This document shows, piece by piece, positions 457-26,756 of a stretch of DNA of 64,000 nucleotides; the stretch's first letter is position 1, and the number at the start of each line of letters is the position of its first letter. The stretch covers positions 434,001-498,000 of the forward strand of contig NZ_CP012150.1 in NCBI RefSeq assembly GCF_001187505.1, given 5' to 3'. The notes under the pieces are model-generated. The model was not told where the DNA came from. It ran no database searches and saw nothing but the letters and a program-made list of their open reading frames with translations. This DNA is from Mycolicibacterium goodii (lineage in GTDB: Bacteria; Actinomycetota; Actinomycetes; Mycobacteriales; Mycobacteriaceae). The position numbers and the translations under genes were made by a program.

Positions 457-529
457 TGCTGGGTTGGCCTTTCATAAGGGTCCCAGTCGGGTGCTGTGAC
501 GTGCCAGACGGGGCGGTAGTCGACCGGTG

Positions 530-1369: not shown

Positions 1370-1387
1370 CTGAGATGACCCATCTGT

Positions 1388-1432: not shown

Positions 1433-1453
1433 GCGGTGTGTCAAACTCGACCT

Positions 1454-1888: not shown

Positions 1889-2223
1889 TCGGATCGATCA
1901 CACATCGACGACGCCGACACCGGGGAGCGGACTTAGCCCGTTTATCGTTCGATGCCTTGGGTGGAGATGAGCGCAATGTGTTCGGGGATAGACTCATACG
2001 CCCCACAGACCGAATGAACACCCAGCCAACCCAGGCCGCGGTCACCACACCATTGCTGGTCCGCCACCGCCGCGCTGTTGCCCAACACGTGACTTCGTGA
2101 GGCTGGCATGAACTGCTCCCGGCACTATGCCGAGGGTCTACCGGGCGTCCCCACGGAAATCTGCGAGACGCATAGAGTGTTGAGCAGACTCAAGGTATTG
2201 CCAACTGATACCGACACTATCGA
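1889..2223. other. Intergenic stretch with no gene recognised
   Basis: The 335 bases between the Rrf2 gene and the insertion element carry no open frame with family features on either strand. The sequence is less GC-rich toward 2160-2230, next to the IS110-type element, and may be old junction DNA. Confidence 0.4.
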
Positions 2224-2243
2224 CACCGCAACGATCTGCGGTG
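2224..2243. terminator. Small perfect hairpin downstream of the IS110 transposase
   Basis: CACCGCA (2224-2230) pairs perfectly with TGCGGTG (2237-2243) around a six-base loop. It lies about 22 bases past the transposase stop on the minus strand and could end that transcript or form part of the element's end. There is no T-run. Confidence 0.35.
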
Positions 2244-2264
2244 AAAGGACTCTCAATGAAGATG

Positions 2265-3473: not shown

Positions 3474-3610
3474 CGAACCTCCTGTTCTGTTGTTACCCAC
3501 CATGTTCCCCACGGACATCCCCGCCAGCGTTTCCTTAAACAAGCGATCAGATCGCAGATCTCAATCAGCGGCCAGAGAAGTCCAGGCAGGTCGGGCGGCC
3601 AGTCCTTTCA
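3474..3610 (-). ncRNA. Candidate IS110 bridge-RNA region
   Basis: The segment between the transposase start and the outer inverted repeat is non-coding on the minus strand and lies where IS110-group elements transcribe a structured RNA that pairs with target and donor DNA. It contains GATCTGCG (minus strand, about 3552-3559), which also occurs just outside the other end (2233-2240). That would suit a guide loop but is short enough to be chance. No fold was computed. Confidence 0.35.
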
Positions 3611-3720
3611 AGCCGCACCCACAGGCCGGCAAAGACGATGCAGCCTCACCCGACCCACCCGGGTTACAGCACAACGTAATAACACGAAGTAACTGCAACT
3701 ACGAACTTAAGGACATCGCG

Positions 3721-3905
3721 ATGTCAGACCACATCGTCGCCGGACCCGTTCCGCCGACCCTCATCGCCGACCTCACCGGCAAGACAGCACTGGTAACCGG
3801 TGGTTCTAAGGGAATTGGGGCGGCCACCGTGGCGCGGTTCGTCGCCGGGGGCGCCACAGTGTTGACCTCGGGGCGGTCTGAGCCGGACTCCCTATCAGAC
3901 GGGTT
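3721..3905 (+). pseudogene. N-terminal fragment of a short-chain dehydrogenase
   Basis: From ATG 3721 (AAGGA upstream) the frame encodes an SDR N-terminus: LTGKTALVTGGSKGIGAATVARFVAGGATVLTSGR, here given only to show the TGGSKGIG cofactor loop near residue 24. After about 60 residues SDR similarity stops and the same frame continues into an unrelated FAD-oxidase segment. The catalytic Ser-Tyr-Lys part is missing, so it cannot be a functional dehydrogenase. A deletion beside the IS110 element is the simplest cause. Confidence 0.75.
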
Positions 3906-4369
3906 GTCAGCAGGCCTGCAAGTCAGTGTCCGCGGCGGTGGCCACAACGCGGCGGGCACCGCGCTGTGTGACGGTGTCGTCGTCGATCTCCGCCGACATG
4001 AATGCTGTCGAGGTCGATCCCGTGGCGCGTCGTGCGCGCGTACAGGCCGGGGCCACGTGGCGCAATCTCGACAACGCCTGCCACGCACACGGATTGGTCG
4101 TCCCCGGCGGGGTGGTCTCCGACACCGGGGTAGCCGGGTTGACGTTGAGCGGTGGTCACGGGTGGGTCCGGCGGGCGCTCGGACTGAGTTGTGACCACGT
4201 CGTCGGTTTCCAGGTCGTTCTCGCCGACGGATCGCGGGTGCGAGCCGACGCGGATCACCACAGCGATCTGGACGGCGCGCTTCGCGGCGGCGGCGGGTTC
4301 TGCGTCGTCACCGCATTCGAATTCGACTTGCACCCGCTCGGCCCCGAAGTGTTCGCCAGTCGCCTGTAG
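3906..4369 (+). pseudogene. Frameshifted fragment of an FAD-linked (berberine-bridge type) oxidase
   Basis: Directly after the SDR fragment the frame encodes VSVRGGGHNAAGTALCDG, the N-terminal FAD-binding motif of PCMH/BBE oxidases. At about 3990 the homology shifts by one base into another frame: MNAVEVDPVARRARVQAG, then GHGWVRRALGLSCDHV and GGGGFCVVTAFEF. It stops at 4367-4369, before the substrate and BBE domains. The joined SDR-FAD frame plus the frameshift shows a decayed chimera. Bases 4370-4623 downstream show only weak, out-of-frame remains. Confidence 0.72.
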
Positions 4370-4623
4370 CACCGCGCCTGCCGCGAGTACCGCCTCACAC
4401 ACCGGGGCCAACGTGTCACCATCCCGCCCGAATTCGTACCTGCCTCATGCGTTTTCGCGTCTGTCGGGTCGTGCACAATCGCAACGGTGGCGCACGCTGA
4501 CTGGAGTCGTAGGGATGACATCGCTCGACGCCCGCGGCTGAGTTCAAAGGGCGTTAGGTGTAGCCAGCCTGTAAGTGGTGCGGCTGGTTGCGGCGACGCG
4601 ACGCCGCTACGTCACTGCGAATC

Positions 4624-5496
4624 TTACCGCTGCGCTGCCGCGGCCACTCGCTCGCGAAGTAGGTCAAGTTTCGCGGCGTCGCGACTACCCGGGACAGCCC
4701 AATTGAGCACGATGTGCAGGTCGGCGCGCTCGATGGTGAGGATGTCGCAATCGAGGGTGATGCCGCCGAGTTCGGGGTGCACGATCGTCTTGTGTGATCC
4801 GCCCAGGGGCAGAGTCTCGTACCGTGCCCACAGATCGCCGAAGCGCGAGTTCGTTTCACGGAGGCCGGTGATCAGTTCGGTAACCGCACGGTCGTCCGGG
4901 TAGCGCTCGGCGGCGCGCCGTAGATCGGAGACCATCATGCGCTCGAAGGCGTCGGTGTGTGCCGCATCACGCTCCACCACCGACGCACCGTCGGGACTGG
5001 CGCCAGCGAAGTGACCCCAGACCATATTTTGGGCCGGACCGCCGACCGGTGCAGTGATGTCGAGGCTGCTAGGCACGCCGAACAATTCGCTCCACAGCGG
5101 GTTGCACTGCACGGCGTCCCAGGCGGCGGTGAAAACGGCCACGGGCGTTTCGCTCATCCGGTCGATCATGCGCTGCACACCAGGTGGGATCGCGCGCGGC
5201 ACCGACCCCGCCGGCGGGACGATGGAGCCGGCCAGGCGAAAGAACGCTTCGCGATCTACGGCGTTGAGTTGCAGGACCCTCGCCAAGGCCTGGAGCACCT
5301 GGGGCGAAGGATTCGTCGCGCGGCCCTGCTCCAATTGCACCAGGTAGTCGAACGAGATTCCGGCCATGAGCGCGAGTTCCTCACGCCGCAGGCCGGGCAC
5401 GCGGCGGTCGCCGCCACCGGAGAGGCCCACCTGAGCCGGGCCGGTGTTCTCGCGCCATGCCCGCAGGGCGCTGCCTAACTCAGTCCGGGTCGCCAT
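4624..5496 (-). CDS. XRE family regulator with MmyB-like ligand-binding domain
   Basis: This 290-residue protein has an N-terminal helix-turn-helix (about residues 35-75: LRREELALMAGISFDYLVQLEQG, with the RREEL motif typical of this group). A long C-terminal domain (about 110-285) follows with the MmyB pattern NPLWSELF and a run of conserved acidic and aromatic residues. Such proteins usually control a neighbouring dehydrogenase and may bind a fatty-acid-like ligand. The gene lies downstream of and convergent with the SDR fragment, and divergent from the NAD(P) reductase at 5723, the more likely surviving target. Confidence 0.88.
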   Translation of the reverse strand: MATRTELGSALRAWRENTGPAQVGLSGGGDRRVPGLRREELALMAGISFDYLVQLEQGRATNPSPQVLQALARVLQLNAVDREAFFRLAGSIVPPAGSVPRAIPPGVQRMIDRMSETPVAVFTAAWDAVQCNPLWSELFGVPSSLDITAPVGGPAQNMVWGHFAGASPDGASVVERDAAHTDAFERMMVSDLRRAAERYPDDRAVTELITGLRETNSRFGDLWARYETLPLGGSHKTIVHPELGGITLDCDILTIERADLHIVLNWAVPGSRDAAKLDLLRERVAAAAQR

Positions 5497-5722
5497 CGCT
5501 CAAGTATGCGCTGCCGCCGCAGCGACTGGGTGGTACCGACAGTCATAGGGAAGGCAACGCCTGGTGCGGCATGGCCAACCGAGATCAGGATCGTGTCGTG
5601 GGTTCAACGCTGACCACCCACACGTGTTGTGACGGGTCACGCCTTCGGATGAACCCGTCAGCGACGACAGCAGACCCCGACGGCCATTAGCCGTCACCGA
5701 CTCAGAATCGAGATTTCCACCC

Positions 5723-6523
5723 ATGACGCAAACAATCGGGATCATCGGCGCCGGCTTGGTCGGCGGCGCGACCGCCCGTCTGGCCATCGACGCGGGCTAC
5801 AACGTCGTGCTCAGCAACTCGCGAGGACCGGAATCGATCGCGAAGCTGGTCCAGGGACTCGGCCCGTCTGCACGGGCGGGAACGGTTGAGGAGGCCATCG
5901 ATGCCGGCGACATTGTAGCCATCCCCCTACCCATAGGAGTCTTCGAGACTCTGCCCGCCGACAAGTTCGCCGGGAAGGTGGTCATCGACCAGACCAACTA
6001 CTACCCCGAGTTCTGGCGGAACACCGAGCTGGACAACGGGGAACTCACCTCCAGCGAGCTCATTCAGCGCCACCTCAAGGACGCCCACGTCGTCAAGGCG
6101 CTGTACAACCTGGACTGGAACCACATGTACTCCAACGCCCGCCCCCAGGGCGACCCCGAACGCACCGCACTGCCGATCGCCGGTGACGACGCCGCCGCCA
6201 AGCAGGCCGTAACGCAGTTCCTGGAGACCGTCGGGTACAACGTCGTCGACGCCGGCCCGCTCGCCGAGAGCTGGCGCATCGAGCCCAACACCGAGATCTA
6301 CTTCTGGCCCTACGCCCCCGCCATCCCGGACGGACTGTTTGAGGACGAGCAGAAGAGCTACTACCTCCAGCACCCGGTCCCCCCCGTCTCGCCGGAGACC
6401 GCGGCCAAGATGATCGCCGACGCCGAGCGCCCGTCACCGATCGGCGGGACGCTGGCGGCCATGCCTCCGGCCCACGTCGCGATCTTCATGGACCAGGCGA
6501 GCGAAAACACCATCAACAAATAA
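5723..6523 (+). CDS. NAD(P)-binding reductase of the NADPH:F420 oxidoreductase-like family
   Basis: This 266-residue protein begins MTQTIGIIGAGLVGGATARLA, a Rossmann GxGxxG loop, then NSRGPES, the usual NADP-phosphate-binding position. A DIVAIPLP strand and KVVIDQTNYYPEF follow, as in COG2085 proteins (F420-dependent NADP reductase relatives). The C-terminal part is longer than in the core family. Its substrate is unknown. The XRE/MmyB gene upstream is divergent, with 226 bases between them. No pseudogene signs. Confidence 0.82.
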   Translation: MTQTIGIIGAGLVGGATARLAIDAGYNVVLSNSRGPESIAKLVQGLGPSARAGTVEEAIDAGDIVAIPLPIGVFETLPADKFAGKVVIDQTNYYPEFWRNTELDNGELTSSELIQRHLKDAHVVKALYNLDWNHMYSNARPQGDPERTALPIAGDDAAAKQAVTQFLETVGYNVVDAGPLAESWRIEPNTEIYFWPYAPAIPDGLFEDEQKSYYLQHPVPPVSPETAAKMIADAERPSPIGGTLAAMPPAHVAIFMDQASENTINK

Positions 6524-6886
6524 CTCGGCATGCGGACCGCAGGCGTCAGCTTGAATCGGAGAAGACAGGCACTCTCGATACTGACACCGTGAGACCGACT
6601 GTCGAGCAACGGCTCTGAGACTGAGTCTGCTTGCGGACAGAGCACCGAGACTGCGGCACACTCGTCGAAGCCGCAGGCTTCGACGAGTGTGCCGTTTAGC
6701 CCTGATCGCGCCGGAAAGGCACACGCGAGGATCCTGCGGCGCTCGCCGACATGACGAATGCCCCAATGCGCCAAGGTTTCTGACGATAGGCGCAGCCAGC
6801 GCTCTTGCTCGGTCGTGCCGATTCCATACCGACGGTGTACTAGCCTGGACGATATGGCGGCCACGGTCGGTCCGGACGGGCTCGAC
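6524..6886. other. Intergenic stretch with a long perfect hairpin
   Basis: No gene is recognised between the reductase and the IS630 remnant. The only strong structure is the inverted repeat at 6655-6693, described separately. The frames that cross this stretch have no family features. Confidence 0.4.
6655..6693. terminator. Perfect 18-bp inverted repeat with 3-base loop
   Basis: GGCACACTCGTCGAAGCC (6655-6672), loop GCA, then its exact complement (6676-6693), followed by GTTTAGC. The position, 130 bases past the reductase stop, suits a transcription terminator; mycobacterial terminators often lack a long T-run. A mobile palindrome is the alternative, since an IS630 remnant follows. Confidence 0.5.
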
Positions 6887-7032
6887 ACGTTGGTTCGCCG
6901 AGGCGACCACCAAGAAACTGCGGCGCGGGCACCCCCACATCGGTGCGCCAACTCAACGCCGACATCCGCGCGTGGATCCAAACCTGGAACGGCAACCCCC
7001 GGCCCTACGTCTGGACCCGTCCACACGATGTC
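6887..7032 (+). pseudogene. Decayed C-terminus of an IS630-type transposase
   Basis: The segment encodes RWFAEATTKKLRRG in one frame and, after a one-base shift near 6930, VRQLNADIRAWIQTWN and NPRPYVWT in the next. This is the conserved end of IS630/Tc1-like transposases just after the last catalytic acidic residue. The catalytic domain is missing and the end of the protein is lost. It abuts the 3' end of the amidase gene. Confidence 0.75.
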
Positions 7033-7056
7033 CAGTTGGACGTGGAAGTGAGAACT

Positions 7057-8496
7057 TCACCCGGCAGGAGTCCGGCGTGCTCCTTCAAAAGCCAGTGTCG
7101 GGTGCAGGTCACGGACGGGACTGAGGTCTTCGAGTGCGGTGGCGATGTGGAGGACCGTGGATTCCGCGTGCCAGTTGCCTGCAATCTGAATTCCGATGGG
7201 GAGGCCATCGCTGCTGGTGCCGAAGCGCATCGACAACGCGGGCAAACCGGTGATGTTGAATTGGACGGTGAATGTTTGAACGTGGTTGGCATCGACGGTT
7301 TTTCCATCGATGATGAACTTCGTCAGGCCGTGCTGGTGAGCTGGGATGGGCAGCACGGGTAGCAGCAGCGCGTCATACCGGGTGAAAAATTCGGCGTAGC
7401 CGTCGCGGATTCTCTCGAAGCCCTGCTCGGCAGCGATGTAACCCTCGATCGACGTGTCGGGGGTGTTGAGCATCGATGTGGACATCGTGAACATCTCCGC
7501 CTCGCGGCCCCTGGTCGCTGCGGCCATCGCAGGTTTGAGTTCCATCACGTGCTGCAGGTTGAACAGCGCCAGCGGGTTGTCGCGTTCGAGCGCGGGGATT
7601 GTGACTTCCTCGACGTGTACGCCGGTGCTTGCGAGGGCGTTCGCAGCGTCGCGGACGGTGGCTGCGACTTCCGGATCGACGGGTCCCAGACCGGAGTCGA
7701 CGAGCCAGCCGACGCGCAACGGGCGGTTCGGGCTGTCTCCGCGGCCGCTGTCGAAGGCCCTCGGTGTCACTGCGAAGCCGTCCGCGCCGTCGGGTCCGGA
7801 CAGCAGCGAGTAGGTAAGGGCGATGTCGCGGACGGTTCTGGCCATAGGGCCGACATGCCAGTTTCGACGCGGGACGCGAGGCCAGACTCCGGTCATCGGG
7901 ATGCGCCCGTGCGTGGGTTTGAGTGCAACGATTCCGGTCTGGGCGGCGGGGCCGCGCACCGATATGGCCAGGTCGGTGCCGAGGCCGAAGGGGCTCATGC
8001 CGGCTGCGATCGCCGCTGATTCGCCGCCGCTGGATCCTCCGGGGGTGCGTTCCAGGTTCCAAGGGTTGTTGGTCCGCCCGGTGAGCAGGTTGTTGCTCTC
8101 GGTCGAGTACGAAAACTCCGGCAGGTTGGTCTTGGCCAGTAGGATTCCGCCAGCGTTCTTGATTCGAGCCACGCTGGTTGCGTCTGTTGTAGGGGTCCGC
8201 CCCGCGAAGATCGGCGAGCCTCGTTGGGTGAGCACGCCTGCCGTGTCGATCGAGTCCTTCACCGTGAAGGGCACACCGTGCAAGGGACCCACGTCGTGGC
8301 CCGCGGCCAGGTCTACGTCGGCGGCGTGCGCGGCGTCGAGAACGTCCTCCGCGATGGTCACGATGGCGTTGATGTCCGGGTTGGTGGCCTCGATCCGTGC
8401 CAGGTGCGCACGCACCAGGTCGACCGATGACACAGCCCGGGTGCGGATCAGCTCTGCCATGGAAGTGGCGTCGTTGTAGATCAGTTCGTCGGACAT
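7057..8496 (-). CDS. Amidase signature family hydrolase
   Basis: This 479-residue protein fits the amidase signature family, which hydrolyses carboxylic amides with a Ser-Ser-Lys triad. The catalytic lysine is in VPFTVKDS, the cis-serine is in PGGSSGGESAA, and the nucleophile is expected in GTDLAISVRGPA. The usual form of that last motif is GSDIGGSIRxPA, so the two glycines of the oxyanion hole are replaced by Ala-Ile, which could alter activity. ATG 8496 has AAGGAGG upstream; a longer in-frame extension would cross the operator. The TetR gene at 8590-9177, upstream on the same strand, shares its operator sequence and probably controls it. Confidence 0.88.
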   Translation of the reverse strand: MSDELIYNDATSMAELIRTRAVSSVDLVRAHLARIEATNPDINAIVTIAEDVLDAAHAADVDLAAGHDVGPLHGVPFTVKDSIDTAGVLTQRGSPIFAGRTPTTDATSVARIKNAGGILLAKTNLPEFSYSTESNNLLTGRTNNPWNLERTPGGSSGGESAAIAAGMSPFGLGTDLAISVRGPAAQTGIVALKPTHGRIPMTGVWPRVPRRNWHVGPMARTVRDIALTYSLLSGPDGADGFAVTPRAFDSGRGDSPNRPLRVGWLVDSGLGPVDPEVAATVRDAANALASTGVHVEEVTIPALERDNPLALFNLQHVMELKPAMAAATRGREAEMFTMSTSMLNTPDTSIEGYIAAEQGFERIRDGYAEFFTRYDALLLPVLPIPAHQHGLTKFIIDGKTVDANHVQTFTVQFNITGLPALSMRFGTSSDGLPIGIQIAGNWHAESTVLHIATALEDLSPVRDLHPTLAFEGARRTPAG

Positions 8497-8519
8497 GATT
8501 CCTCCTTGATGCGCTCTAG

Positions 8520-8534
8520 TAGACCGGTCGACTA
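8520..8534. promoter_or_regulatory. TetR operator upstream of the amidase
   Basis: TAGACCGGTCGACTA lies 24 bases before the amidase start. It differs at one base from the palindrome ahead of the adjacent TetR gene (9198-9212). The pair points to one regulator controlling both genes. Confidence 0.65.
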
Positions 8535-8589
8535 TCACTAGATAGGGGTTGGTTGGTGGTCGAGATGGCCAGCGTGCGGGAGCGGATTG

Positions 8590-9177
8590 TCAGATGTGCA
8601 ACACCTGATGTGTGTAAGCCATCACCGTGTCGAGGTGCTCTGGATTGCGATTGACCTTCGCGAGGACGCTCGCCCCAATCCATGCGCTGTAGAGCGTGTT
8701 CGCCGCGACCGCGGGCGTGACCTCCAGTGACACTGAACCGTCTTCGACGCCGGCGGCCAGCATTCCTTCGAGGCGGTCCAGGATGCCCGCCGTGCCCTGC
8801 TGCAGGATCAGCCGCATCGGCTCCGACAAGTCGGACACCTCAGCGGCCAATTTCACGACGAGGCAACGGCCTTGACAGTCGTCGACAGTCTGCTTGTCGT
8901 AGAACTGCTGCCAGTAGGTCATAAGCTGCTCTGCGGGGCTGGCGCCCGGCATGGCGATTATGCGGTTCATGTTGGCCAGATAGCTGGTGAAGTAGTTCTG
9001 GAGCATCGCCTCACCGAACGCGTCCCTCGAGTTGAAGTAGTGATAGAAGGAGCCTTTCGGAACGCCGGCCGCCGTCAGTATTTCAGTGAGGCCGACGGCC
9101 GAGTACCCCTTCTGAACCATCAGCTGTTCGGCTGTGTCGAGGATCGTCTGCCGGGTGTCGGTCTTCGCCGTTGTCAC
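8590..9177 (-). CDS. TetR/AcrR family regulator
   Basis: This 195-residue protein has an N-terminal TetR helix-turn-helix (residues about 8-54: RQTILDTAEQLMVQKGYSAVGLTEIL, then GVPKGSFYHYFNSRDAF, with the FYHYF recognition signature). The C-terminal ligand domain resembles the TetR_C_16/NemR-like group, with a single cysteine in DDCQGRCL. It starts at GTG 9177. The same palindrome lies 20 bases upstream of it and upstream of the amidase, so it probably represses both. Confidence 0.9.
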   Translation of the reverse strand: MTTAKTDTRQTILDTAEQLMVQKGYSAVGLTEILTAAGVPKGSFYHYFNSRDAFGEAMLQNYFTSYLANMNRIIAMPGASPAEQLMTYWQQFYDKQTVDDCQGRCLVVKLAAEVSDLSEPMRLILQQGTAGILDRLEGMLAAGVEDGSVSLEVTPAVAANTLYSAWIGASVLAKVNRNPEHLDTVMAYTHQVLHI

Positions 9178-9197
9178 GTTTCGACGCTAACACCGAG

Positions 9198-9212
9198 TAG
9201 ACCGGTCGTCTA
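9198..9212. promoter_or_regulatory. TetR operator, autoregulatory copy
   Basis: TAGACCGGTCGTCTA is a perfect TAGAC-N5-GTCTA palindrome, 20 bases ahead of the GTG start of the TetR gene. A one-mismatch copy precedes the amidase. Confidence 0.65.
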
Positions 9213-9331
9213 GTCCTCAATTCGTCTTGCGGGGTCCGGTTACCCGGACCTGAAGGTGTCGCCGGCACCGGAAGGCGGTCGTGTGTCACACAGAACCGTT
9301 GTCAAACGGCTCGCGATACGGCTCGTGACCC

Positions 9332-9670
9332 TCAATCGCGCATCAGGGCCGCGACGCCGAGCGTCCAGAACGGCCGCAGGGCGATGCCGGGGCCCTGTGC
9401 CGGCCACCCGTCGAAGCGGACATCGTGATGGTCGTCAGGGTCGACGGTGTTGTGCCGGAACCGGATCCGTCGACCGACCCAGCGCTCAGGCGAGCCCCAT
9501 CCGTCTTCCTCGCCCCGGCCCCCTCGGTGGGGCCAAACCCGCCGACGAGTGCCGGCACCTCCGGTGCCGCCGTCGAGGGAGTACCCGTCTCCGCCCTGCG
9601 GCGTTGAGTGAGATCGGTGTTCTTGCTGATCGCCGAACTGATTGGTCAGGGTGTTCAACACCCATGGCAT
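9332..9670 (-). CDS. Unrecognised short reading frame downstream of a TetR gene
   Basis: From ATG 9670 the frame encodes about 112 residues (MPWVLNTLTNQFGDQ near the start, DPDDHHDVRFDGWPAQG and LRPFWTLGVAAL near the end). I do not recognise a family. The central part is rich in Gly and Arg, which is common in frames that are not translated in high-GC DNA, but the C-terminal third looks protein-like. It follows the TetR gene at 9718 in the same direction. It may be a remnant. The rest of 9213-9717 shows nothing. Confidence 0.3.
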   Translation of the reverse strand: MPWVLNTLTNQFGDQQEHRSHSTPQGGDGYSLDGGTGGAGTRRRVWPHRGGRGEEDGWGSPERWVGRRIRFRHNTVDPDDHHDVRFDGWPAQGPGIALRPFWTLGVAALMRD

Positions 9671-9717
9671 CAACGGGCGTGCTCTGCAGCGTGCGTCCGG
9701 TGTCACAGCGGCGCGCT

Positions 9718-10269
9718 TCAGCAGTCGAGCACGGCCTTCACGGCAGCCGCAACCAGTTCTGAATCCGCGTCGTCGATTGCGGCTCCGAGTGGTGGCTGCG
9801 AAAGCGCAATGACGATGTGCAACAGCATCTCTGGCGGGTAGTGGGTGGTGACGATCCCGTCCCGCTGCGCTGCGCGGATCGCATCCAACTTCGCTTCGGT
9901 TGCCGCGACGACCGACGCGAGTCTCAAGCCCGCCCCGTCACGTTCAAGACGGTCCCAGGTCGCGATGCGGAGGATCTTCGGATTCCGTCGGTGCTGTTCG
10001 AACAGTGCCGCGGCGTATGCCGGCAGATTCGCGACATCCAGCGGTACCGCGTCGACGGTGGCCACGACGATGGCATCGAAGACGGCGTCAAAGAGAAGAT
10101 CTTTACTCCCGAAGTAGCGATAGATCATCGCCTTGTTGCTCTTGGCTGCCGCCGCGATCCTGTCGATCCGTCCCCCCGCGAGCCCGAACGACGCGAATTC
10201 GTCGATTGCCGCGTCGAGGATGCGTTGCTTGGTCAACGCTGAGTCCTTCGCCCGGGACGGGGTGGTCAT
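9718..10269 (-). CDS. TetR family regulator
   Basis: This 183-residue protein has a TetR DNA-binding domain at residues about 13-60 (LTKQRILDAAIDEFASFG, then RIAAAAKSNKAMIYRYFGSKDLL, with the IYRYFGSK signature). The C-terminal part resembles the TetR_C_17-like group. ATG 10269 is chosen because an upstream extension would run into the divergent promoter. It is divergent from an MDR reductase at 10381 with a long inverted repeat between them, so autoregulation and control of that reductase are likely. Confidence 0.9.
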   Translation of the reverse strand: MTTPSRAKDSALTKQRILDAAIDEFASFGLAGGRIDRIAAAAKSNKAMIYRYFGSKDLLFDAVFDAIVVATVDAVPLDVANLPAYAAALFEQHRRNPKILRIATWDRLERDGAGLRLASVVAATEAKLDAIRAAQRDGIVTTHYPPEMLLHIVIALSQPPLGAAIDDADSELVAAAVKAVLDC

Positions 10270-10287
10270 GACGGTTGAGACTAGTGC

Positions 10288-10349
10288 AAGTAACCAGTCG
10301 TTTGCATGTAACGTACACTCGACTTCGCGGTGCAACTAACTGGTTACTT
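10288..10349. promoter_or_regulatory. Paired 11-bp inverted repeats in a divergent promoter
   Basis: AAGTAACCAGT (10288-10298) and ACTGGTTACTT (10339-10349) are exact inverted copies separated by 40 bases. The second copy also contains TAAC-TG-GTTA, itself a palindrome. The two sites lie between the TetR gene and the MDR reductase and are good candidate operators. Confidence 0.6.
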
Positions 10350-10380
10350 ACATCGCCGAAGAAGCTTGGAAGGGACTGAC

Positions 10381-11394
10381 ATGCGGAAGTGGATCATCAA
10401 ACCTCATGAGAGCGGGCTCGACGCCTTGACGTTGGTGGACGGCGCGATACCCGAACCAGGGCCAGGACAGGTGCGCATCGCAGTCAAGGCGGCGTCCTTG
10501 AACTATCGCGATCAAATTATCCTCAACGGCGGCTACGGACAGGTCATCACGACGGACACAATCCCCGCATCCGACGCCGCCGGCGTCATCGACGCGGTCG
10601 GTGAGGGTGTCGACAGTTGGGCCGTCGGTGATGACGTCATCACTGTCTACTTCGCCGACTGGGTCGACGGACCGCCGCCCACGGGAATGGGCTTCGGACT
10701 GGGGTCACCCGGCGAGGACGGTGTGCTGGCCGAGTACATCACGCTGCCCGCCGACCGAGTCGTCGCGAAACCCAAGTCTCTGGACTACATTCAAGCCGCC
10801 ACTCTTACATGCGCCGGACTGACGGCGTGGACCGCGTTGACCGAAGAGCACCCGGTCCTGGCCGGGCAAACCGTTCTGACATTGGGAAGCGGTGGAGTGT
10901 CGGTGTTCGCGCTGCAACTCGCCCAGGCGATGGGCGCCACGGTCATCGTAACCACCGGCGGCAATGACAAGAGCGCTCGGCTGATCGACCTGGGGGCCGC
11001 CCGCGTCATCAACTACCGCACCGACGAAACCTGGGGTGAGACCGCGTACGCAGCGACTGGCGGAGCCGACAAAGTCGTCAACGCCGCGGGCGGAGACGCC
11101 ATGCTCCAATCCATCATGGCGGTCGCGAACGGAGGTGAGATCGCTGTCATGGGCGTGTTTTCCGATGGCGACGCCCCGCCGCCGCTGCCGATCCTCATGG
11201 CCAAGGGGGCATCCATTCGCGGTACCGCAGTTGGTGGCCGCGTGGCGTTGCAGCGTCTCGTCGAGTTCGTCGACACCCACGGCATCGCGCCGGTGATCCA
11301 TAAGGTGTACGGGTTCGACGACGTCAAGGAGGCCTACGCCGCCCAGGCGAGCCCCGACGTCTTCGGCAAGGTGGTCATCGCGATCACCAACTAG
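10381..11394 (+). CDS. MDR superfamily zinc-free NAD(P)-dependent alcohol dehydrogenase / quinone reductase
   Basis: This 337-residue protein has the GroES-like N-terminal domain of medium-chain reductases (SLNYRDQIILNGGYG, then PASDAAGVIDAVGEGV) and a Rossmann domain (about residues 160-300) with LTLGSGGVSVFALQLAQ. The cysteines that bind catalytic and structural zinc are absent, which places it with quinone reductase/NADPH-dependent members. ATG 10381 follows GAAGGGACTGAC; the frame is open further upstream but crosses the operator. Substrate unknown. It is divergent from, and probably regulated by, the TetR gene at 9718. Confidence 0.88.
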   Translation: MRKWIIKPHESGLDALTLVDGAIPEPGPGQVRIAVKAASLNYRDQIILNGGYGQVITTDTIPASDAAGVIDAVGEGVDSWAVGDDVITVYFADWVDGPPPTGMGFGLGSPGEDGVLAEYITLPADRVVAKPKSLDYIQAATLTCAGLTAWTALTEEHPVLAGQTVLTLGSGGVSVFALQLAQAMGATVIVTTGGNDKSARLIDLGAARVINYRTDETWGETAYAATGGADKVVNAAGGDAMLQSIMAVANGGEIAVMGVFSDGDAPPPLPILMAKGASIRGTAVGGRVALQRLVEFVDTHGIAPVIHKVYGFDDVKEAYAAQASPDVFGKVVIAITN

Positions 11395-11625
11395 TGTTGC
11401 GCGTCATCAAGGAGTTCACAGTCTGGGATGATGGTGTATCCCGACGACGGCTGCCAAGCCATCCGCCGCGGCTCCTTCAACAGCGTGAAAGAACTGATGA
11501 CCACCATCACCGCACTCACCCACGGCTGAAACCAACGCTGCCACCCATCCATTCGTCTGGACCAAACCCGCCGACGAATCCTGCCCCACACCCGTAAACC
11601 AAATTCAGACGCGAGGCACTAGATG
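11395..11625 (+). pseudogene. Decayed C-terminus of a second IS630-type transposase
   Basis: The segment encodes RRGSFNSVKELMTTITALTH, then HG followed by a stop where the family has Trp-Asn, and after a two-base shift PFVWTKPADE. This is the C-terminal end of an IS630-type transposase, different in sequence from the remnant at 6887. The stop and the frameshift show it is dead. It lies between the MDR reductase and the terpene operon; the remaining bases to 11714 show no gene. Confidence 0.75.
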
Positions 11626-11714
11626 CATTTGAGTGAATAGTCATCTCATGTCAGCTGCACGGGCTGTTGGTCGCGTAGGGGTTCGGCTCGGCACGCGTAC
11701 GCCGGCGCTTCGCG

Positions 11715-12812
11715 TTACTCATCGAGAGCGTCCCAGTACCACTGGATGGATTTCGGCCGCGGGAACGGAGTGGTGAACGATCGATCGTGGCTGACCTCGT
11801 GGATAGGCTGGACATCGAAGCCGTTGTCGCCGACGTCGGCGATCTGTTGTGGGGACAGGATGTAGCGCGGTAAGAGTCGTTGCCATTCAAGCGTGCCGCG
11901 AACGATATTGGACATGTCTTCCAGGTAACCGTCGAGCTCCGGATCGCCCAAACGTACGAGTTGGGCCTTCAAGTCGAGAAAGACTTGCATGATCTGCTCC
12001 ACGAAGTGCCGGGAATGGTCGATGGCCTCGGGGATGGAACAGCCTCGTTCGTTGGCGATTATCGCAACGATGTTGGATTCCAATGACCTTTGATGCCGCT
12101 CCCACCCGTACGACGCGATATCAGTCGGCACTGTGAGCAACACGATCGAGGCATGGGTGATTGCCCGGACTGCTCGCATGCTTGTGTAATCGGCGTTGAG
12201 CCACCGTCGGCTTGCCACTTGTGTGAAATAGAGACTGCTCGCGTTTCCGCCGTCCATCGGTCGCACGATGAGATGTTCATCGAGGTTCCGAAGGTGGGAA
12301 CTCACACGGTCGCTGACACCGCAGTACGCTCCGACCATCCATTGGAAGTGTTCCAACCCGATGGCCGAAGCTACCAGGTAGCCAGACCGTGCCTCGACTC
12401 GCGAAAAGATATCTTGGAGGGACATTTCGAATCCGCGCAGCGTGTCGTCGCCTGCCGACAACTCGCGCGGATTCAAGCACCGAGTCATCATGCTGGCCGC
12501 TACATACCCGAATCGTGAGGGATCTCGGGCAATATCGCCGTCATCGCAGTATGCGTCGTCGAAGAGCAGTGCCCACATGAGCCAGTCGCTGAGTAACTGG
12601 ACACCTTCTTCGTCACCTTCCGGCGCGTAATACGACGCTAGACGGCCTGTGCCCATCGCCTTCGTAGTTCGGAGCGACTGGGCGTCGAAGCCGCATGCTT
12701 CGAAGAACTTTTCGGAGGCCGCTTGATATTTCTGCGCGTCCGGCTTCTCTTTCAATTCGATTGGGCACCAAAGCGGGCCAATGTCGAGCCCCCTCGTCAG
12801 TTCAGCGGTCAC
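11715..12812 (-). CDS. Class I terpene cyclase
   Basis: This 365-residue protein matches bacterial class I terpene synthases, which ionise a prenyl diphosphate and cyclise it. The aspartate-rich motif DDAYCDD is at residues 85-91. The NSE-type triad reads TDIASYGWE at 230-238, so Thr replaces the usual first Asn while Asp231, Ser234 and Glu238 are kept. Arg184 lies 46 residues before the triad, as the diphosphate sensor should, and the C-terminal RY pair is at 316-317. GTG 12812 has AGGAGGG ten bases upstream. It is the last gene of the terpenoid operon, 105 bases after ispG. The product is unknown; the prenyl synthase upstream suggests a C15 or C20 substrate. Confidence 0.88.
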   Translation of the reverse strand: MTAELTRGLDIGPLWCPIELKEKPDAQKYQAASEKFFEACGFDAQSLRTTKAMGTGRLASYYAPEGDEEGVQLLSDWLMWALLFDDAYCDDGDIARDPSRFGYVAASMMTRCLNPRELSAGDDTLRGFEMSLQDIFSRVEARSGYLVASAIGLEHFQWMVGAYCGVSDRVSSHLRNLDEHLIVRPMDGGNASSLYFTQVASRRWLNADYTSMRAVRAITHASIVLLTVPTDIASYGWERHQRSLESNIVAIIANERGCSIPEAIDHSRHFVEQIMQVFLDLKAQLVRLGDPELDGYLEDMSNIVRGTLEWQRLLPRYILSPQQIADVGDNGFDVQPIHEVSHDRSFTTPFPRPKSIQWYWDALDE

Positions 12813-12917
12813 TGGCGTTCCCTCCTAATTGGGTGTTGTCGCACACGCGGTCGATGGGTCTGTGGTGATAAACGTCTTTCGGCCCCAGCCACGCCATCGG
12901 CGGTCACGGGGCTCATA

Positions 12918-14054
12918 TCAATCGCGGGTCGGTGATTGCGAGAGGTGAAGTGCCTCTTCGATGAGTGTCTCCACGATCTGGGCCTCGGGCACGGTCTTGA
13001 TGACCTCGCCCTTGACGAAGATCTGGCCCTTGCCGTTGCCGGAGGCCACACCGAGATCGGCCTCGCGGGCCTCACCGGGTCCGTTGACCACGCAACCCAT
13101 CACGGCGACCCGCAGCGGGACATCCAGACCGTCCAGACCCGCGGTGACCGCGTTGGCCAGCGTGTAGACATCGACCTGGGCGCGTCCGCACGACGGGCAC
13201 GACACGATCTCCAGTCCGCGCGGCCGCAGGTTCAGCGATTCCAGGATCTGGTTGCCGACCTTGACCTCCTCGGCCGGCGGCGCCGACAGCGACACCCGGA
13301 TGGTGTCGCCGATGCCCTTGGACAGCAACGCCCCGAACGCGACCGCCGACTTGATGGTGCCCTGGAACGCCGGGCCCGCCTCGGTGACACCGAGGTGCAG
13401 CGGATAGTCGCACTGCGCGGCGAGCTGCTCGTAGGCCGCGACCATGATCACCGGATCGTTGTGCTTGACGCTGATCTTGATGTCGCCGAAGCCGTGCTCC
13501 TCGAACAGCGAGGCCTCCCACAGCGCCGATTCCACCAGCGCCTCGGGGGTGGCCTTGCCGTACTTCTCCAAAAATCGCTTGTCCAGCGAGCCCGCGTTGA
13601 CGCCGATGCGGATCGGGATGCCCGCATCCCCGGCGGCCTTGGCGACCTCCTTCACCCGGCCGTCGAACTCCTTGATGTTGCCCGGATTCACCCGCACCGC
13701 GGCACATCCCGCGTCGATCGCGGCGAAGATGTACTTGGGCTGGAAGTGGATGTCGGCGATCACCGGGATCTGGCTGTGCCGCGCGATCTCGGCGAGCGCA
13801 TCGGCGTCCTCCTGACGCGGGCACGCCACCCGCACGATGTCACAACCCGACGCGGTCAGCTCGGCGATCTGCTGCAGCGTGGAGTTGACGTCGTGGGTCT
13901 TGGTGGTGCACATGGACTGCACCGCGATGGGATGCTCGCTGCCCACCCCGACACCACCCACATCGAGCTGTCGGGTTTTGCGCCGGGGCGCCAGCGTGGG
14001 CGGCGGCTGTCCAGAACCCATAGCCGGCATACCCAGATCCGTGGTCGCTGTCAT
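12918..14054 (-). CDS. ispG: 4-hydroxy-3-methylbut-2-enyl diphosphate synthase (flavodoxin/ferredoxin type)
   Basis: This 378-residue enzyme makes HMBPP from MEcPP, the penultimate step of the MEP isoprenoid pathway, using a [4Fe-4S] cluster. The cluster ligands are Cys286, Cys289 (CPSCGR) and Cys321 ([11 protein letters not shown]), with the fourth ligand Glu328. The TIM-barrel half is complete ([18 protein letters not shown]). It lies 34 bases after dxs in the same operon. Its base composition looks different from its neighbours: 60-base rows counted by hand gave mostly about 70% GC, against 52-67% in the cyclase and dxs. It may therefore be a copy recruited from the host's own ispG. Confidence 0.95.
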
Positions 14055-14088
14055 AACGTCATCAATCGGTGTCGGGTCAAGGTGGTGG

Positions 14089-15888
14089 TCACGTGTAGGC
14101 CTCTACTTCGTTCCGCCGTAACAGATTTAAGCCTTTACGCACGATGCCGGGGGCGTCGAGCTCATATCGGCTGAGCAACGCGCTGCGGCTTGCCGCAGGC
14201 AGGAAACGTGTCGGCAGCGCCATCGTGTGGACTTGTGTGTGCGACATACCATCGAGTGCGGACGTCAAGCGGGAACCCAACGATCCCAGGGCAATTGTGT
14301 CCTCAGCGGTGATGACCACGCGATGCTGTCGGGCGAGGTCGACGAGGCTGCGGTCGATCGGGCTGGTCCACCGCGGGTCGACGACCGTAACACCCACACC
14401 GTGCTGACGTAAACCGTCAGCGGCCGACAGGCATGTTGCGGCCAGCGGACCCACAGGGATGAGCAGCACCTCCGCATCGTCATCGGCGCGCAGAACATCA
14501 CACGCCCCGACGCGCTGCAACGCGGGGATAGGCTCTGCTGCCGGGCCTTTCGGGTATCGAATTACCGTAGGCGCCGGCATCGCAACTGCTTCTCGCAGCA
14601 GGACGCCAAGCTCACGCCCGTCACGTGGGCAGCCGATATGAAGGCCGGGAACGGCGCCGAGAATCGCCGTGTCCCACATACCGTTGTGACTCGGCCCGTC
14701 CGGCCCGGTAATCCCTGAACGGTCCAGCACCATCGTCACCGGAAGGTGGTGCAACGCCACATCCATCATGACCTGGTCGAATGCCCGGTTCAGGAAAGTC
14801 GAGTACACGGCGACAACCGGATGCAGCCCCGCCAGAGCCATGCCGGCAGCAGAACAGACAGCGTGCTGTTCAGCGATGCCCACGTCGAACACGCGGTTCG
14901 GGAACACTGCGGCCATCGGGCCGAGCCCGACCTGGTCTCGCATCGCAGCCGCAACCGCTACGACCTCGGCGCGCTCGGCGGCTAGCCGGGTGATCTCCTC
15001 GGCGAAGATATCGGTCCATGTGGTGCTCACAGGTGTGCGTGGAGCTCCGGTTACGGGGTCGATAGCCCCGATAGCGTGCATGCATTCGGCGTCGTCAGCC
15101 TCGGCAAGCGCATAGCCTCTACCCTTTATCGTCTGGGTGTGCACGACGACTGGTCGACGCGACTCAGCGGCCTCGCGGAGCGCGTCTTCGAGTTGCGCAA
15201 GGTCATGACCATCCACAGGGCCGATGTACTTGAACCCCAGCGCACCGAAGAAGTCGACAGGAGTGCCCCGATCTGCTGACGTTCCATTCAGTAGACGTGA
15301 CAGGCTGCCGGCGGTGGGCGCGTACGAGCGGCCGTTATCGTTGAGCACGAGGACGACCGGCCGATCCTGGGCTCCGCCGATGTTGTTGAGCGCCTCCCAG
15401 GCCATCCCGCCGGTGAGGGCACCGTCCCCGACCACCGCGACTATTCTGCGGTGCTGTTGACCGGCGAGTTGGCGCGCTTTGGCGAGCCCGTCAGCGTAGG
15501 ACAATGCTGTTGATGCGTGCGAATTCTCGATGACATCGTGCACGGACTCACTACTGGACGGGTACCCGGACAAGCCACCCTCCTGTCGCAGCGTGGAGAA
15601 GAGCGCGCCTCGGCCCGTGATGATCTTGTGTACGTAGGCCTGGTGGCCGGTGTCGAACAAGATGGTGTCTGAAGGGGATTCGAATACTCGATGCAAGGCG
15701 ATGGTCAATTCCACAACGCCGAGATTCGGTCCGAGATGACCGCCAGTGGTGGTCACTTCGTTGATCAGATGCCGACGAATCTCGTCGGCCAGCCCCGATA
15801 GGTCGTCGTCGTCGATACGACGCAGCGTCTGCGGGCTGAGGTCCACCAGCGTGGTCGGGGGCATCGGATGTGCCGGTGTGCTAGTCAT
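14089..15888 (-). CDS. dxs: 1-deoxy-D-xylulose-5-phosphate synthase
   Basis: This 599-residue thiamine-diphosphate enzyme condenses pyruvate and glyceraldehyde-3-phosphate, the entry and main flux-controlling step of the MEP pathway. Visible motifs are GHLGPNLG (50-57), [13 protein letters not shown] (81-93), the ThDP/magnesium motif GDGALTGG...NN (154-169) and the catalytic Glu340 in [24 protein letters not shown] is also present. It is somewhat shorter than housekeeping mycobacterial Dxs (about 640) and looks complete. Its ATG overlaps the ispH stop by four bases (ATGA), indicating translational coupling. It is comparable in setting to M. tuberculosis dxs2. Confidence 0.95.
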
Positions 15889-16838
15889 GGCTGCTTGCGA
15901 GTGGCTGGCGTCGCGAAATGCACTGTCTCACGGGTGAATTCATACTCATCAACCTCCAACGGTCCGAACTGGCGAAGCCGAGCGATGACCCCATCGACCA
16001 GATGTGACGGGGCTGAGGCCCCCGCGCTGAGTCCGATCGTCCGGACACCGTTGAGCCAATCCGGCGAAATTTGTGCCGCGTCGTCGATCAGGTGCGCAGA
16101 CGCGCCGCAGCTGCGCGCGACATCGACAAGACGTTGCGAGTTCGACGAGTTGTCGGACCCGACAACGAGTACGAGCTCGGACTGAGCTGCCACAGCGGCG
16201 ATCGCCTGTTGCCGATTTGTCGTCGCATAACAGATGTCTGACGTCGGCGGATCGATCAGGTCCGGAAACCGTTCGCGTAACCGCGCGATGATCTCGGTTG
16301 TCTCGTCGACCGCCAACGTTGTCTGCGTCAGATATGTCACTCGGGATGCATCTGGTGCCACAACACGGTCGACATCCTCGACATGTTCGACGAGTTGGAT
16401 CACTTCAGGCGCATGTCCCAGTGTTCCTTCGACCTCTTCGTGACCCGCGTGGCCGATCAGCACAACCGTGTCCCCGCGGCGCTGGAGGCGCCGTGCACGT
16501 GCGTGGACTTTCGACACCAATGGGCACGTGGCGTCGATGACCCGCAAGTTTCTGGTGGCCGCTTGCTCCCGAACCTGCGGTGATACGCCGTGAGCGGAGA
16601 AGATGACCAGGGATTCGGGAGGGACGTCGTCAAGCTCTTCAACGAAGACCGCGCCGCGAGCCTCCAGATCGGCAACAACGTGTGCGTTGTGGACGATCTG
16701 CTTGCGCACGTAAACCGGTGGCCCATTGTCGGTCAAGGCATGTTCGACAACATCTATCGCGCGTTCAACTCCGGCGCAGAACGATCTGGGCGCGGCGAGC
16801 AGAACTCTACGCACTCCAGGAAGCTGGTTCTCATTCAT
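15885..16838 (-). CDS. ispH: 4-hydroxy-3-methylbut-2-enyl diphosphate reductase
   Basis: This 317-residue iron-sulfur enzyme converts HMBPP to IPP and DMAPP, the last MEP step. The cluster cysteines are Cys21 (SFCAGVERA), Cys105 (DATCPLV) and Cys203 (DICYATTNRQ). Substrate-binding residues include VHNAHVV, GHAGHEEVEGT with the proton-relay Glu137, and GSDNSSNSQRL. ATG 16838 is chosen because the first cysteine motif normally lies about 20 residues in; a longer in-frame extension would overlap the prenyl synthase gene. It sits 19 bases after that gene and overlaps dxs by four. It resembles M. tuberculosis lytB1, the accessory IspH copy near the tuberculosinol genes. Confidence 0.94.
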   Translation of the reverse strand: MNENQLPGVRRVLLAAPRSFCAGVERAIDVVEHALTDNGPPVYVRKQIVHNAHVVADLEARGAVFVEELDDVPPESLVIFSAHGVSPQVREQAATRNLRVIDATCPLVSKVHARARRLQRRGDTVVLIGHAGHEEVEGTLGHAPEVIQLVEHVEDVDRVVAPDASRVTYLTQTTLAVDETTEIIARLRERFPDLIDPPTSDICYATTNRQQAIAAVAAQSELVLVVGSDNSSNSQRLVDVARSCGASAHLIDDAAQISPDWLNGVRTIGLSAGASAPSHLVDGVIARLRQFGPLEVDEYEFTRETVHFATPATRKQP

Positions 16839-16857
16839 AGGTAGGTTCGCCTTGTTG

Positions 16858-17907
16858 CTAGTACGTGCGATCGCACACTCGCGCGGCAAGCGCTGCGAGC
16901 TCGGCAACAGCAGGAGGGTGCAGGTTCCACGTGGCGAGGTTTGACAGTGCCTCCTGGACCCGCCGCTCAGCTTCCGATGTCGCCCACTCCTTACCGCCTG
17001 CAGCATCCACCAGCCGTGCGGCGCGATTCAGTTCAACATCGGTCAGATCCCGCCGAATCTGGTACAGCGTCATCAACTCTTCGGCGGCACGCGTACCGCT
17101 GTTCATCGCGAACACGACCGGCAGAGATTTCTTCCGGCTCTGCAAGTCGGACCGCGCCGGCTTACCGGTTCGCTTGGGATCGCCCCAGATGCCCAGAACA
17201 TCGTCGATGAGTTGGAAGGCAAGCCCGAGTTCCTCGCCGAACACGCTCATCTGTTGCACCAGTGCGGCATCTGCTCCCGCGCTCAGCGCGCCAAGGGCGC
17301 ATGCGCCGCCCAGCAGCGCCCCGGTCTTCGCCCGTGCCATCGCGATGCACTCACTCAGTTTCACTCCACCGGTTCGTGATTCAAGACGGATATCGGCATC
17401 TTGACCGAAGATCATGCGTTCCACGGACCGCGAGAGGTGCCGGACCGCCTCGAATGGGTCAGGAGAAAACTCCGCATCAGCCAACACTTCGTAGGCAAGA
17501 CCCAACAGCGCATCGCCGACCAAAATGGCTGCTGGAATGCCGAATACGGTCCACACTGTCGGCCGGTGTCGGCGACGCTGGTCACGGTCGATGACGTCGT
17601 CGTGCATCAGTGAGAAGTTGTGCACCAATTCCACGGCAACTGCGGCCGACACTGCCTTTCCGGGCGTGCCGCCCGCGGCACGGCTGACCAAAAGCGTTGC
17701 AGCTGCGCGGATCATCTTGCCGTTGGCCGCGTTGATGGGATGACCCGATTCGTCGCACCAACCAAGGTGATAGCTCATAACCGTCTGCATTTCGGCGGGC
17801 AGCTCCGTCGCCACCGATCGCAACGCGGGATCAACCAACCTGTGTGTGTCACCGAGAATCTGCTCGATACTGCGAGAGCTTCCTGGTGCGAGTTCAGCTG
17901 CCGTCAC
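16858..17907 (-). CDS. Polyprenyl (probably geranylgeranyl or farnesyl) diphosphate synthase, IdsB-like
   Basis: This 349-residue all-helical prenyltransferase condenses IPP with allylic diphosphates. The first aspartate-rich motif DDVID is at 103-107 and the second, DDVLGIWGD, at 235-243. Phe98, five residues before the first motif, is a bulky chain-length-limiting position and fits a C15-C20 product. GTG 17907 is chosen because AGGGGA lies seven bases upstream; the in-frame ATG at 17928 has no ribosome site. It is the first gene of the terpenoid operon and should supply the cyclase with substrate. M. tuberculosis idsB occupies the same place beside lytB1 and dxs2. Confidence 0.9.
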   Translation of the reverse strand: MTAAELAPGSSRSIEQILGDTHRLVDPALRSVATELPAEMQTVMSYHLGWCDESGHPINAANGKMIRAAATLLVSRAAGGTPGKAVSAAVAVELVHNFSLMHDDVIDRDQRRRHRPTVWTVFGIPAAILVGDALLGLAYEVLADAEFSPDPFEAVRHLSRSVERMIFGQDADIRLESRTGGVKLSECIAMARAKTGALLGGACALGALSAGADAALVQQMSVFGEELGLAFQLIDDVLGIWGDPKRTGKPARSDLQSRKKSLPVVFAMNSGTRAAEELMTLYQIRRDLTDVELNRAARLVDAAGGKEWATSEAERRVQEALSNLATWNLHPPAVAELAALAARVCDRTY

Positions 17908-18277
17908 AAGTAATTCCCCTTTTTTCATATGGCGCAGAAGAACAACGCGCCATCCACAGCGGTCACAACGATTGTTTGCCCGAAATCTTTCTCGCGGCTG
18001 CGAGGGACCGGCAGTCTGCTGATACAACCAATCGCATCGTCAGATACGGTGATGAATAAATACGTTTGCTGCAGAGGCGGCGGTCGCGAGGTGTTTTCCA
18101 GCGCCCGCGCCGTGCATACCGCTCTTACGCGGGTTTGCGGCGATTCAAAGATCCCCCGAATGTTTTGTTCATTGGCTGATGTCAAGATCATGAGCTTCAG
18201 CAGCAACGCTTGTCAACTCGGATCAGGCCCATCAGATCAGACATTCCGCAAAGTCTGAGAGCGCATACATTTGCTGA

Positions 18278-18295
18278 TAGTTGCCAATGCAACTA
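18278..18295. promoter_or_regulatory. MarR-type palindrome upstream of the terpenoid operon
   Basis: TAGTTGC-CAAT-GCAACTA is a perfect 7-bp-arm palindrome of the form bound by many MarR-family regulators (TTGC-N4-GCAA core). It is about 370 bases upstream of the prenyl synthase start. No MarR gene is present in the window, so the regulator, if any, is elsewhere. Confidence 0.5.
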
Positions 18296-18550
18296 CATGC
18301 TCCTCGCGACGCAGCGGCGGCTGCGCTGACGGACATTGGGTGAGATCCCGGTCGCTGTCACGCCTTCACGCCGGCCCTGGCTGTCAACGGCACTTCGAAG
18401 CATCAACCGTCGGTTACCTGCCAATATCGACGCACAGCGAACCTTCAGACGTCGAGAACGCGCTACGTTTCGGCAACGGCGGCGAAAATTAAGGGCATCT
18501 AGCAAAAGGCGATGCGCTGATGCACGCCAACTGCCGACCACCAAACGTCG

Positions 18551-18591
18551 TCAGGCCGGGCCGTACCTCAGGCCCCTGAACGTCTCAGGCC
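18551..18591. repeat. Three TCAGGCC direct repeats at 17-base intervals
   Basis: TCAGGCC starts at 18551, 18568 and 18585, exactly 17 bases apart, with unrelated spacers. The array is short and its role is unknown. Confidence 0.4.
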
Positions 18592-18975
18592 GCTCGGCGC
18601 ACAGTGAACGGTAGGTGCCCGCCGCGCCGGGTGGAACCCGAGCTTTTCAGCAAACGAGTAAACCGAACGGGTGATTGCGAAGTATTTGAAAAACGCCGCC
18701 GAAACTCCTCCGATCAATTTGATGACCGATGAGGTCTCGAGACGCAGGGGTTGAGCGCTAGGAGGCAAACGTGGGTGCAGCACTGCTTGCCCCCCGCAGT
18801 CCGCCGCCACGACCGATCACCAGACAACTGCGGAAGTGACCTTTGAAATCGCGGCGTCGACGGGGCCCACGACGAGCGGCAGTAACGCACCGCGCGAGGG
18901 CGGCGCGGCATGGGCCACAAACGACTTCGGTGGTCCGTCAACGCCATTCCCGCGCACGGTCACCGGCTCCACGCT

Positions 18976-19518: not shown

Positions 19519-19542
19519 CCCCTTCGAACGAACCCTTGTATC

Positions 19543-26716: not shown

Positions 26717-26756
26717 ACCCATCACAGTAGCGACTCCGAGCCGAGTATCGCCGAAC

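Follow-up and report, generated by a model that had tools for sequence, protein, structure and literature searches.

A class I terpene operon with second copies of dxs, ispG and ispH on a tRNA-Gly-linked island in Mycolicibacterium goodii

Introduction

Terpene genes that lie beside genes of the methylerythritol phosphate (MEP) pathway are a known kind of bacterial operon. In Mycobacterium tuberculosis, the isotuberculosinol/tuberculosinol operon combines copies of a polyprenyl diphosphate synthase (IDS), IspH and Dxs with terminal terpene enzymes, namely a class II cyclase and Rv3378c. Its IDS is IdsB (Rv3383c), a geranylgeranyl diphosphate (GGPP) synthase, its Dxs2 is an inactive pseudogene, IspG is not among its genes as far as the available part of the source goes, and the operon is described there as gained by horizontal transfer (PMC3470408). 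Terpene clusters of Pseudomonas also carry MEP genes, as in the pgr cluster of Pseudomonas grimontii, where a DXS gene forms part of the terpene synthase operon, while kindred Pseudomonas clusters have DXR, IspG or IspH (PMC13022886, in the part available). Here we analyse a stretch of 64,000 nucleotides from Mycolicibacterium goodii (contig NZ_CP012150.1, positions 434,001 to 498,000, the window in what follows), in which five minus-strand genes at window positions 11715-17907 encode an IDS, IspH, Dxs, IspG and a class I terpene cyclase.

The operon has IDS, IspH and Dxs in common with that of M. tuberculosis, and differs from it by its class I cyclase, by the presence of IspG and by an IDS that is not IdsB. 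A first-pass annotation, made from the letters of the window, had already pointed out both the resemblance in architecture and the different terminal enzyme, which our comparison bears out; the M. tuberculosis dxs2 that it cited as a parallel is described as an inactive pseudogene (PMC3470408, in part). Neither the island nor the match of ispG to the core copy could be recognised from those letters. The pgr cluster is like the window in joining a terpene synthase to its own DXS, and unlike it in its IDI, methyltransferases and C17 products (PMC13022886, in part). The novelty of such an arrangement is modest. What is new is the tRNA island on which the operon lies, the rarity of its cyclase in the genus, the non-IdsB IDS, and an ispG that is identical to the core copy over 1,010 bp. 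We consider it likely that this class I terpene operon, the right-hand part of an island linked to tRNA-Gly, was gained by horizontal transfer, and that its ispG was recently converted by the core copy.

Results

Open reading frames (ORFs) and Pfam agree on the five genes, and the strand, families and spacing given in the first-pass annotation hold throughout (Table 1). In the order IDS to cyclase the intergenic gaps are 19, -4, 34 and 105 bases, and the genes are probably transcribed together. Each protein scores above its Pfam cut-off (polyprenyl_synt 185.2 bits, LYTB 312.8, DXP_synthase_N 309.4, GcpE 472.2, Terpene_syn_C_2 64.8), the scan having used longer ORFs for IDS (16858-18027) and IspH (15885-17006). 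The NCBIfam equivalog models of dxs, ispG and ispH likewise score the operon proteins above cut-off.

Table 1. Coordinates, in the window, of the operon genes and of the island features around them
Feature	Position	Strand	Remarks
Polyprenyl diphosphate synthase (IDS)	16858..17907	-	GTG start; operon gene 1; PF00348 match
ispH (HMBPP reductase), copy 2	15885..16838	-	ATG start; PF02401; LytB1-type side of tree
dxs, copy 2	14089..15888	-	ATG start; TIGR00204 528.1 vs cut-off 465.95
ispG, copy 2	12918..14054	-	ATG start; GcpE 472.2
Class I terpene cyclase, ArgT clade (by sequence)	11715..12812	-	GTG start; PF19086 64.8 vs cut-off 23.7
Mismatch-free tract vs core ispG (C1:5734348-5735445), 1,010 bp	12952..13961	-	likely gene-conversion tract
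Island part within window	1..18958		no counterpart in G077
Right direct repeat GTCACCGGCTCCAC (attR-like)	18959..18972		recurrence of left repeat

The operon is the right-hand cargo of an island of 34,680 bp (C1:418279-452958, C1 being the one contig of 7,105,933 bases that makes up the genome). This island has no counterpart in G077, the nearest relative met, where the two flanks meet at an empty site; collinear blocks share 83.6-91.6% identity, and several gaps occur on either side. To the left the island is bordered by the 3' end of a tRNA-Gly(CCC) gene (C1:418204-418277), and the left copy of a 14-bp direct repeat, GTCACCGGCTCCAC, which lies outside the window (C1:418265-418278), consists of the last 13 bases of the tRNA plus one base. 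With insertion at a tRNA 3' end, direct repeats at both borders and absence from a relative, the segment has these features of a tRNA-linked island.

The genome carries a second copy of each of the three MEP genes. The other ispH lies at C1:3061305-3062138 (a PF02401 search gives two ispH genes in the genome), and the operon IspH is 56% identical to this core copy and at most 60% to any other in the genus sample, which comprises 396 genomes, taken from a larger group and including our own. The other dxs is found at C1:5465382-5467190, matched by the operon Dxs in two segments of 52% and 66% identity, and a search with the operon IspG recovers the core ispG (Table 1) as a 98% match. That the operon might hold the sole copies, a case which the first-pass annotation had set against its own reading, is ruled out by these second genes; the operon set is therefore accessory, and its description as a tight operon of extra copies stands. 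Three polyprenyl synthases occur genome-wide (PF00348), whereas the operon cyclase is the sole match to PF19086.

Over 1,055 bp the operon and core ispG genes share 99.8% identity, and within this lies the mismatch-free tract. Upstream of it there are two mismatches, an indel of 12 bases and some other changes in the first 90 bases of ispG, and at its 3' end the two copies diverge at once. The core locus is native, being 91% identical to G077 across 4.1 kb. The operon/core ispG pairs of three other mycobacterial genomes (G113, G216 and G381) are 80-81% identical. The GC content at third codon positions is 0.66-0.71 in the other four operon genes but 0.876 in ispG; that of three genes just outside is 0.83-0.85. 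Moreover, a VTVS tail is found in all ten core IspG copies compared and is missing from the window's operon copy, as it is from all three of the other mycobacterial operon copies. The simplest reading of these sequences is that the operon ispG was likely overwritten by core ispG in the recent past through gene conversion. Among the papers listed by our literature search on gene conversion involving ispG, we found none on ispG conversion.

What, then, would the second copies be for? The MEP pathway consists of seven enzymes. The operon encodes three of them (Dxs, IspG and IspH), and dxr and ispD/E/F are not among its genes, so that it relies on the host for the remaining steps. The label 'self-supplying' of the first-pass annotation claims too much, and 'flux-boosting' seems the better one. 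A second Dxs would raise entry into the host pathway, the middle steps would be carried by the host's own Dxr and IspD/E/F, and the second IspG and IspH would add capacity at the two late iron-sulfur steps. From isopentenyl and dimethylallyl diphosphate the IDS would then make farnesyl diphosphate or GGPP, which the cyclase would convert to a cyclic terpene, a C15 one of the ArgT kind being likelier than a C20 one.

The cyclase itself has an aspartate-rich motif (DDAYCDD), a sensor Arg184 and an RY pair at 316-317, all conserved in the alignment. Its NSE triad reads T-D-I-A-S-Y-G-W-E (TDIASYGWE) and not N-D-x-x-S-x-x-K/R-E; the canonical Asn is replaced by Thr, and the claim that every catalytic motif is present holds in this enzyme for the former three only. 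A protein search returned 27 matches including the query, and in the resulting alignment with 26 relatives the triad opens with Thr in 25 of the 27 rows (the window's included) and with Asn in the two most distant. Thr also stands there in all nine genome loci of the same clade (L017-L025, 39-48% identity), which suggests a feature of the clade. The nearest relatives are 60% and 53% identical, and the next are mostly Nocardia and Streptomyces proteins. Of the 396 genomes in the genus sample, one was found to have the cyclase, namely the window's own. The one characterised member of the clade that we found is ArgT of Nocardia argentinensis ATCC 31306, with 44% identity (E 5.9e-79) and the same T-D-x-x-S-x-x-x-E triad (TDVASFARE); ArgT is reported to be active, yielding the sesquiterpene guaia-1(10),11-diene in S. 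albus (PMC10055836, in the part available). By sequence, the window cyclase belongs to this ArgT clade with its Thr triad. Its predicted model (pLDDT, a per-residue confidence measure, of 92.2) has the class I alpha fold, with selinadiene synthase as best match (TM score 0.86); SVS designs, the diterpene synthase CyS and a sesterterpene synthase come next. We keep it as a class I bacterial terpene cyclase at the level of the predicted fold despite the Thr triad, because ArgT carries the same Thr and is reported active.

A relation to the tuberculosinol-type supply module is supported in part. Against the IdsB model NF045549, the window IDS reaches 322.5 bits, below the cut-off of 475, whereas the IDS of all five mycobacterial idsB-lytB1-dxs operons tested pass it (G105 594.2, G113 607.7, G216 601.7, G381 607.9, G029 630.6); the operon is therefore not simply the tuberculosinol supply module. 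In a quick tree of 31 chosen rows, in which long branches were flagged, the window IDS groups apart from those five. The best NCBIfam match of the IDS is NF041169, the family 2 encapsulin cargo polyprenyl transferase, which it resembles to 430.4 bits, below the cut-off of 450. A search for a SrpI-like shell gene found none in the genome, and the same search found none in any control genome either.

IspH gives another picture. In a quick tree of 20 chosen rows (the window, 17 mycobacterial and two Streptomyces copies), the window IspH falls in a supported set of eight, the other members being six mycobacterial copies of LytB1 type and one from Streptomyces; on the opposite side stand eleven core copies from mycobacteria and the other Streptomyces copy. 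A single clade with the LytB1-type operon copies is not rejected by the approximately unbiased (AU) test (p-AU 0.205). For Dxs, the closest match is a second Dxs of M. smegmatis MKD8, 77% identical, among the best 120 of 7,997 matches listed. In the free Dxs tree (57 rows, 43 of them from those 120 matches; quick and of chosen rows) the two pair apart from the five idsB-lytB1-dxs operon copies, and one common clade with these five is not rejected either (p-AU 0.46, AU test on 35 rows). The operon of MKD8 may carry a different terminal enzyme: the protein search gave no match to the cyclase in this strain, and no IDS match from it was among the best 120 of 6,455 listed. The first-pass annotation had spoken of a related supply module, which agrees with IspH and not with IDS, nor with the placement of Dxs in the free tree. 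On these sequences, the operon appears to be a parallel one, parts of which may share deep ancestry with the tuberculosinol-type module, and not a member of it.

Similar clusters were looked for in two ways. Dxs proteins that match the operon's at E<=1e-170 occur in nine of the 396 genomes, our own included, and we examined 14-18 kb around the other eight genes. IDS, ispH and dxs lie together in five of them (G113, G216, G381, G105 and G029), and the other three (G163, G270 and G041) have dxs with a distant IDS and no match to ispH or ispG. The operons of G105 and G029 (L171 and L173; genome sizes 4.5 and 5.1 Mb) look tuberculosinol-like: beside IdsB, ispH and dxs they encode a protein that resembles squalene cyclase. 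In G113, G216 and G381 (L168, L169 and L172) the operon runs from an IdsB-type IDS through a cytochrome P450, a class I cyclase, one or two unknown genes, ispH, dxs and ispG to another P450; one of the unknown genes is weakly squalene-cyclase-like, the cyclase triad reads NDLLS, and a DDxxD motif is not recognisable in G113 and G216. These three share IDS, IspH, Dxs, IspG and the Terpene_syn_C_2 domain with the window, and differ from it by the two P450 genes, another cyclase, an IdsB-type IDS and an ispG only 80-81% identical to the core gene.

An alignment scan of genome contigs with the cyclase relatives gave 40 loci. Among the nine with a cyclase of the same clade, dxs, ispG and IDS are present in two (L024 and L025), IDS alone in three (L018, L019 and L021, from two genomes, L019 and L021 being on one Nocardia contig), and neither IDS nor dxs/ispG in four; L020, L023 and L024 are short loci. 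L024 (Streptomyces sp. 549) and L025 (S. pyxinae) are terpene clusters that resemble the window in setting a same-clade cyclase beside Dxs, IspG and IDS. They differ in that their cyclases are 39-41% identical, that their IspG is 68-69% identical and not a mycobacterial core copy, and that IspH was not found within either locus, in a search of 12 loci of which L024, L025, L048 and L050 are on genome contigs. In L048 and L050, whose cyclases are more distant, dxs, ispG, IDS and ispH are all present. By sequence, the kin of the cyclase and the layout of these clusters point to terpene clusters of Nocardia and Streptomyces. A scan of genome contigs with the single cyclase sequence gave 14 pattern matches and no relatives, and the alignment scan of viral contigs gave four and none. 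Among the papers listed by our literature searches on mycobacterial terpene synthases, on MKD8 and terpenes, and on MEP genes in clusters, we found nothing on this operon.

Discussion

Some observations weigh against our reading, be it of the island, of the ispG tract or of the product. No site-specific integrase was detected in the 36 island ORFs scanned with Pfam, out of 40 listed of at least 100 amino acids; the scan did show IS3- and IS110-type transposases. We take the island to be decayed, its status as an island resting on its borders. As for ispG, the identity of the two copies is what an assembly error would also give, or a recent capture (duplication) of the core gene in place of conversion of an older operon copy. 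Such a capture would suit an identity that extends over almost all of the gene; the first 90 bases match the core too, save for the 12-base insertion and a few changes, and no flanking divergent ispG is left for comparison. It fits less well with the contrast between 1,010 bp devoid of mismatches and those changes in the first 90 bases, with the sharp 3' break, with an adjacency of dxs and ispG that is old in such clusters, or with the missing tail, in which the gene resembles other operon copies. We find capture somewhat unlikely, and conversion of an older operon copy remains our preferred reading. The operon as a whole might alternatively be a branch of the mycobacterial idsB-lytB1-dxs module that swapped its terminal enzyme within the genus. 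It has the same functional gene set, its IspH groups with the LytB1-type copies, a single clade is rejected neither for Dxs nor for IspH, and in G113, G216 and G381 a class I cyclase does accompany such a module. However, by score the IDS is not an IdsB, as it is in all five such operons, and it groups apart; Dxs stands apart in the free tree; and the cyclases of G113 and G216 match the window's over just 77-96 residues at 25-26% identity, that of G381 being weaker still. This makes a swap within the genus improbable, and acquisition of the operon with the island the reading we retain.

The metal-binding role of the NSE Asn is general to the family, and its loss to Thr could mean that the cyclase is inactive. 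The reading frame is intact, however, and we reject the Thr as a sign of a dead enzyme, since it recurs in most aligned rows and in all nine clade loci, and ArgT, one of those rows, is reported active (PMC10055836, in part); we consider inactivity highly improbable. The product is probably a small ring-shaped terpene, and we lean towards a C15 sesquiterpene by analogy with the product of ArgT and with the best NCBIfam match of the cyclase, a C15 synthase model, albeit at 107 of 450 and so far below its cut-off. We do not put the C15 product higher because the PDB matches are mixed, with C15, C20 and C25 enzymes, and the span of chain lengths among the fold matches means that the fold does not fix product length. 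A C20 diterpene made from GGPP of the operon's own IDS is a real possibility, if not the one we favour. The IDS motifs (HNFSLMHDDVID and FQLIDDVLG) are of the type I, GGPP-synthase-like kind and resemble those of IdsB copies, the cyclase finds SVS designs as its best PDB sequence matches, and the diterpene synthase CyS stands high among its fold matches. SVS we take to be the C20 spiroviolene synthase. Furthermore, the IdsB of M. tuberculosis, Rv3383c, makes GGPP (PMC3470408, in part). Set against this are the C15 product of ArgT, the sole characterised clade member found (PMC10055836, in part), and the C15 synthase model.

The observation from which this work started was sound, and its broad reading right. 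What a specialist would not expect is the island, a cyclase absent from the other sampled genomes of the genus, and a probably overwritten ispG. If our reading is correct, a mycobacterium has gained a class I terpene pathway together with flux-boosting MEP genes through a tRNA island, and has done so separately from the tuberculosinol module. A bounded locus that is absent from a collinear relative would allow the role of dxs, ispG and ispH in terpene operons to be tested, and the cyclase adds to a clade whose metal-binding triad is altered. The match between operon and core ispG offers a clear case for asking whether copies in a cluster are overwritten by their core counterparts. Because IspG depends on electron donors of the host, a host-matched copy could matter. 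We may speculate that a foreign operon was domesticated by conversion, its oxygen-sensitive iron-sulfur IspG being kept identical to the host copy and matched to host electron donors while the other enzymes stayed foreign; we think this unlikely as it stands. If true and repeated across strains, it would mean that a biosynthetic cluster evolves in concert with core metabolism.

Several minor observations concern the surroundings of the operon. The TetR and P450 genes at window 18976-20947 are ruled out as cluster members, as they lie outside the island and are present at the empty site of G077. An Rfam scan of window 1-30000 gave no matches. Between the operon and the right repeat, about 1 kb (17908-18958, GC 0.59) has no recognisable gene, and the one ORF scanned in it has no Pfam match; it may hold a promoter or a decayed integration gene. 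Further to the right, about 14 kb (26506-40845) form another stretch without a counterpart at the collinear place in G077. Lastly, frames at 3286-4541, by an IS110-type transposase (2265-3542), resemble remnants of a short-chain dehydrogenase and other enzymes, that is, decay inside the island.

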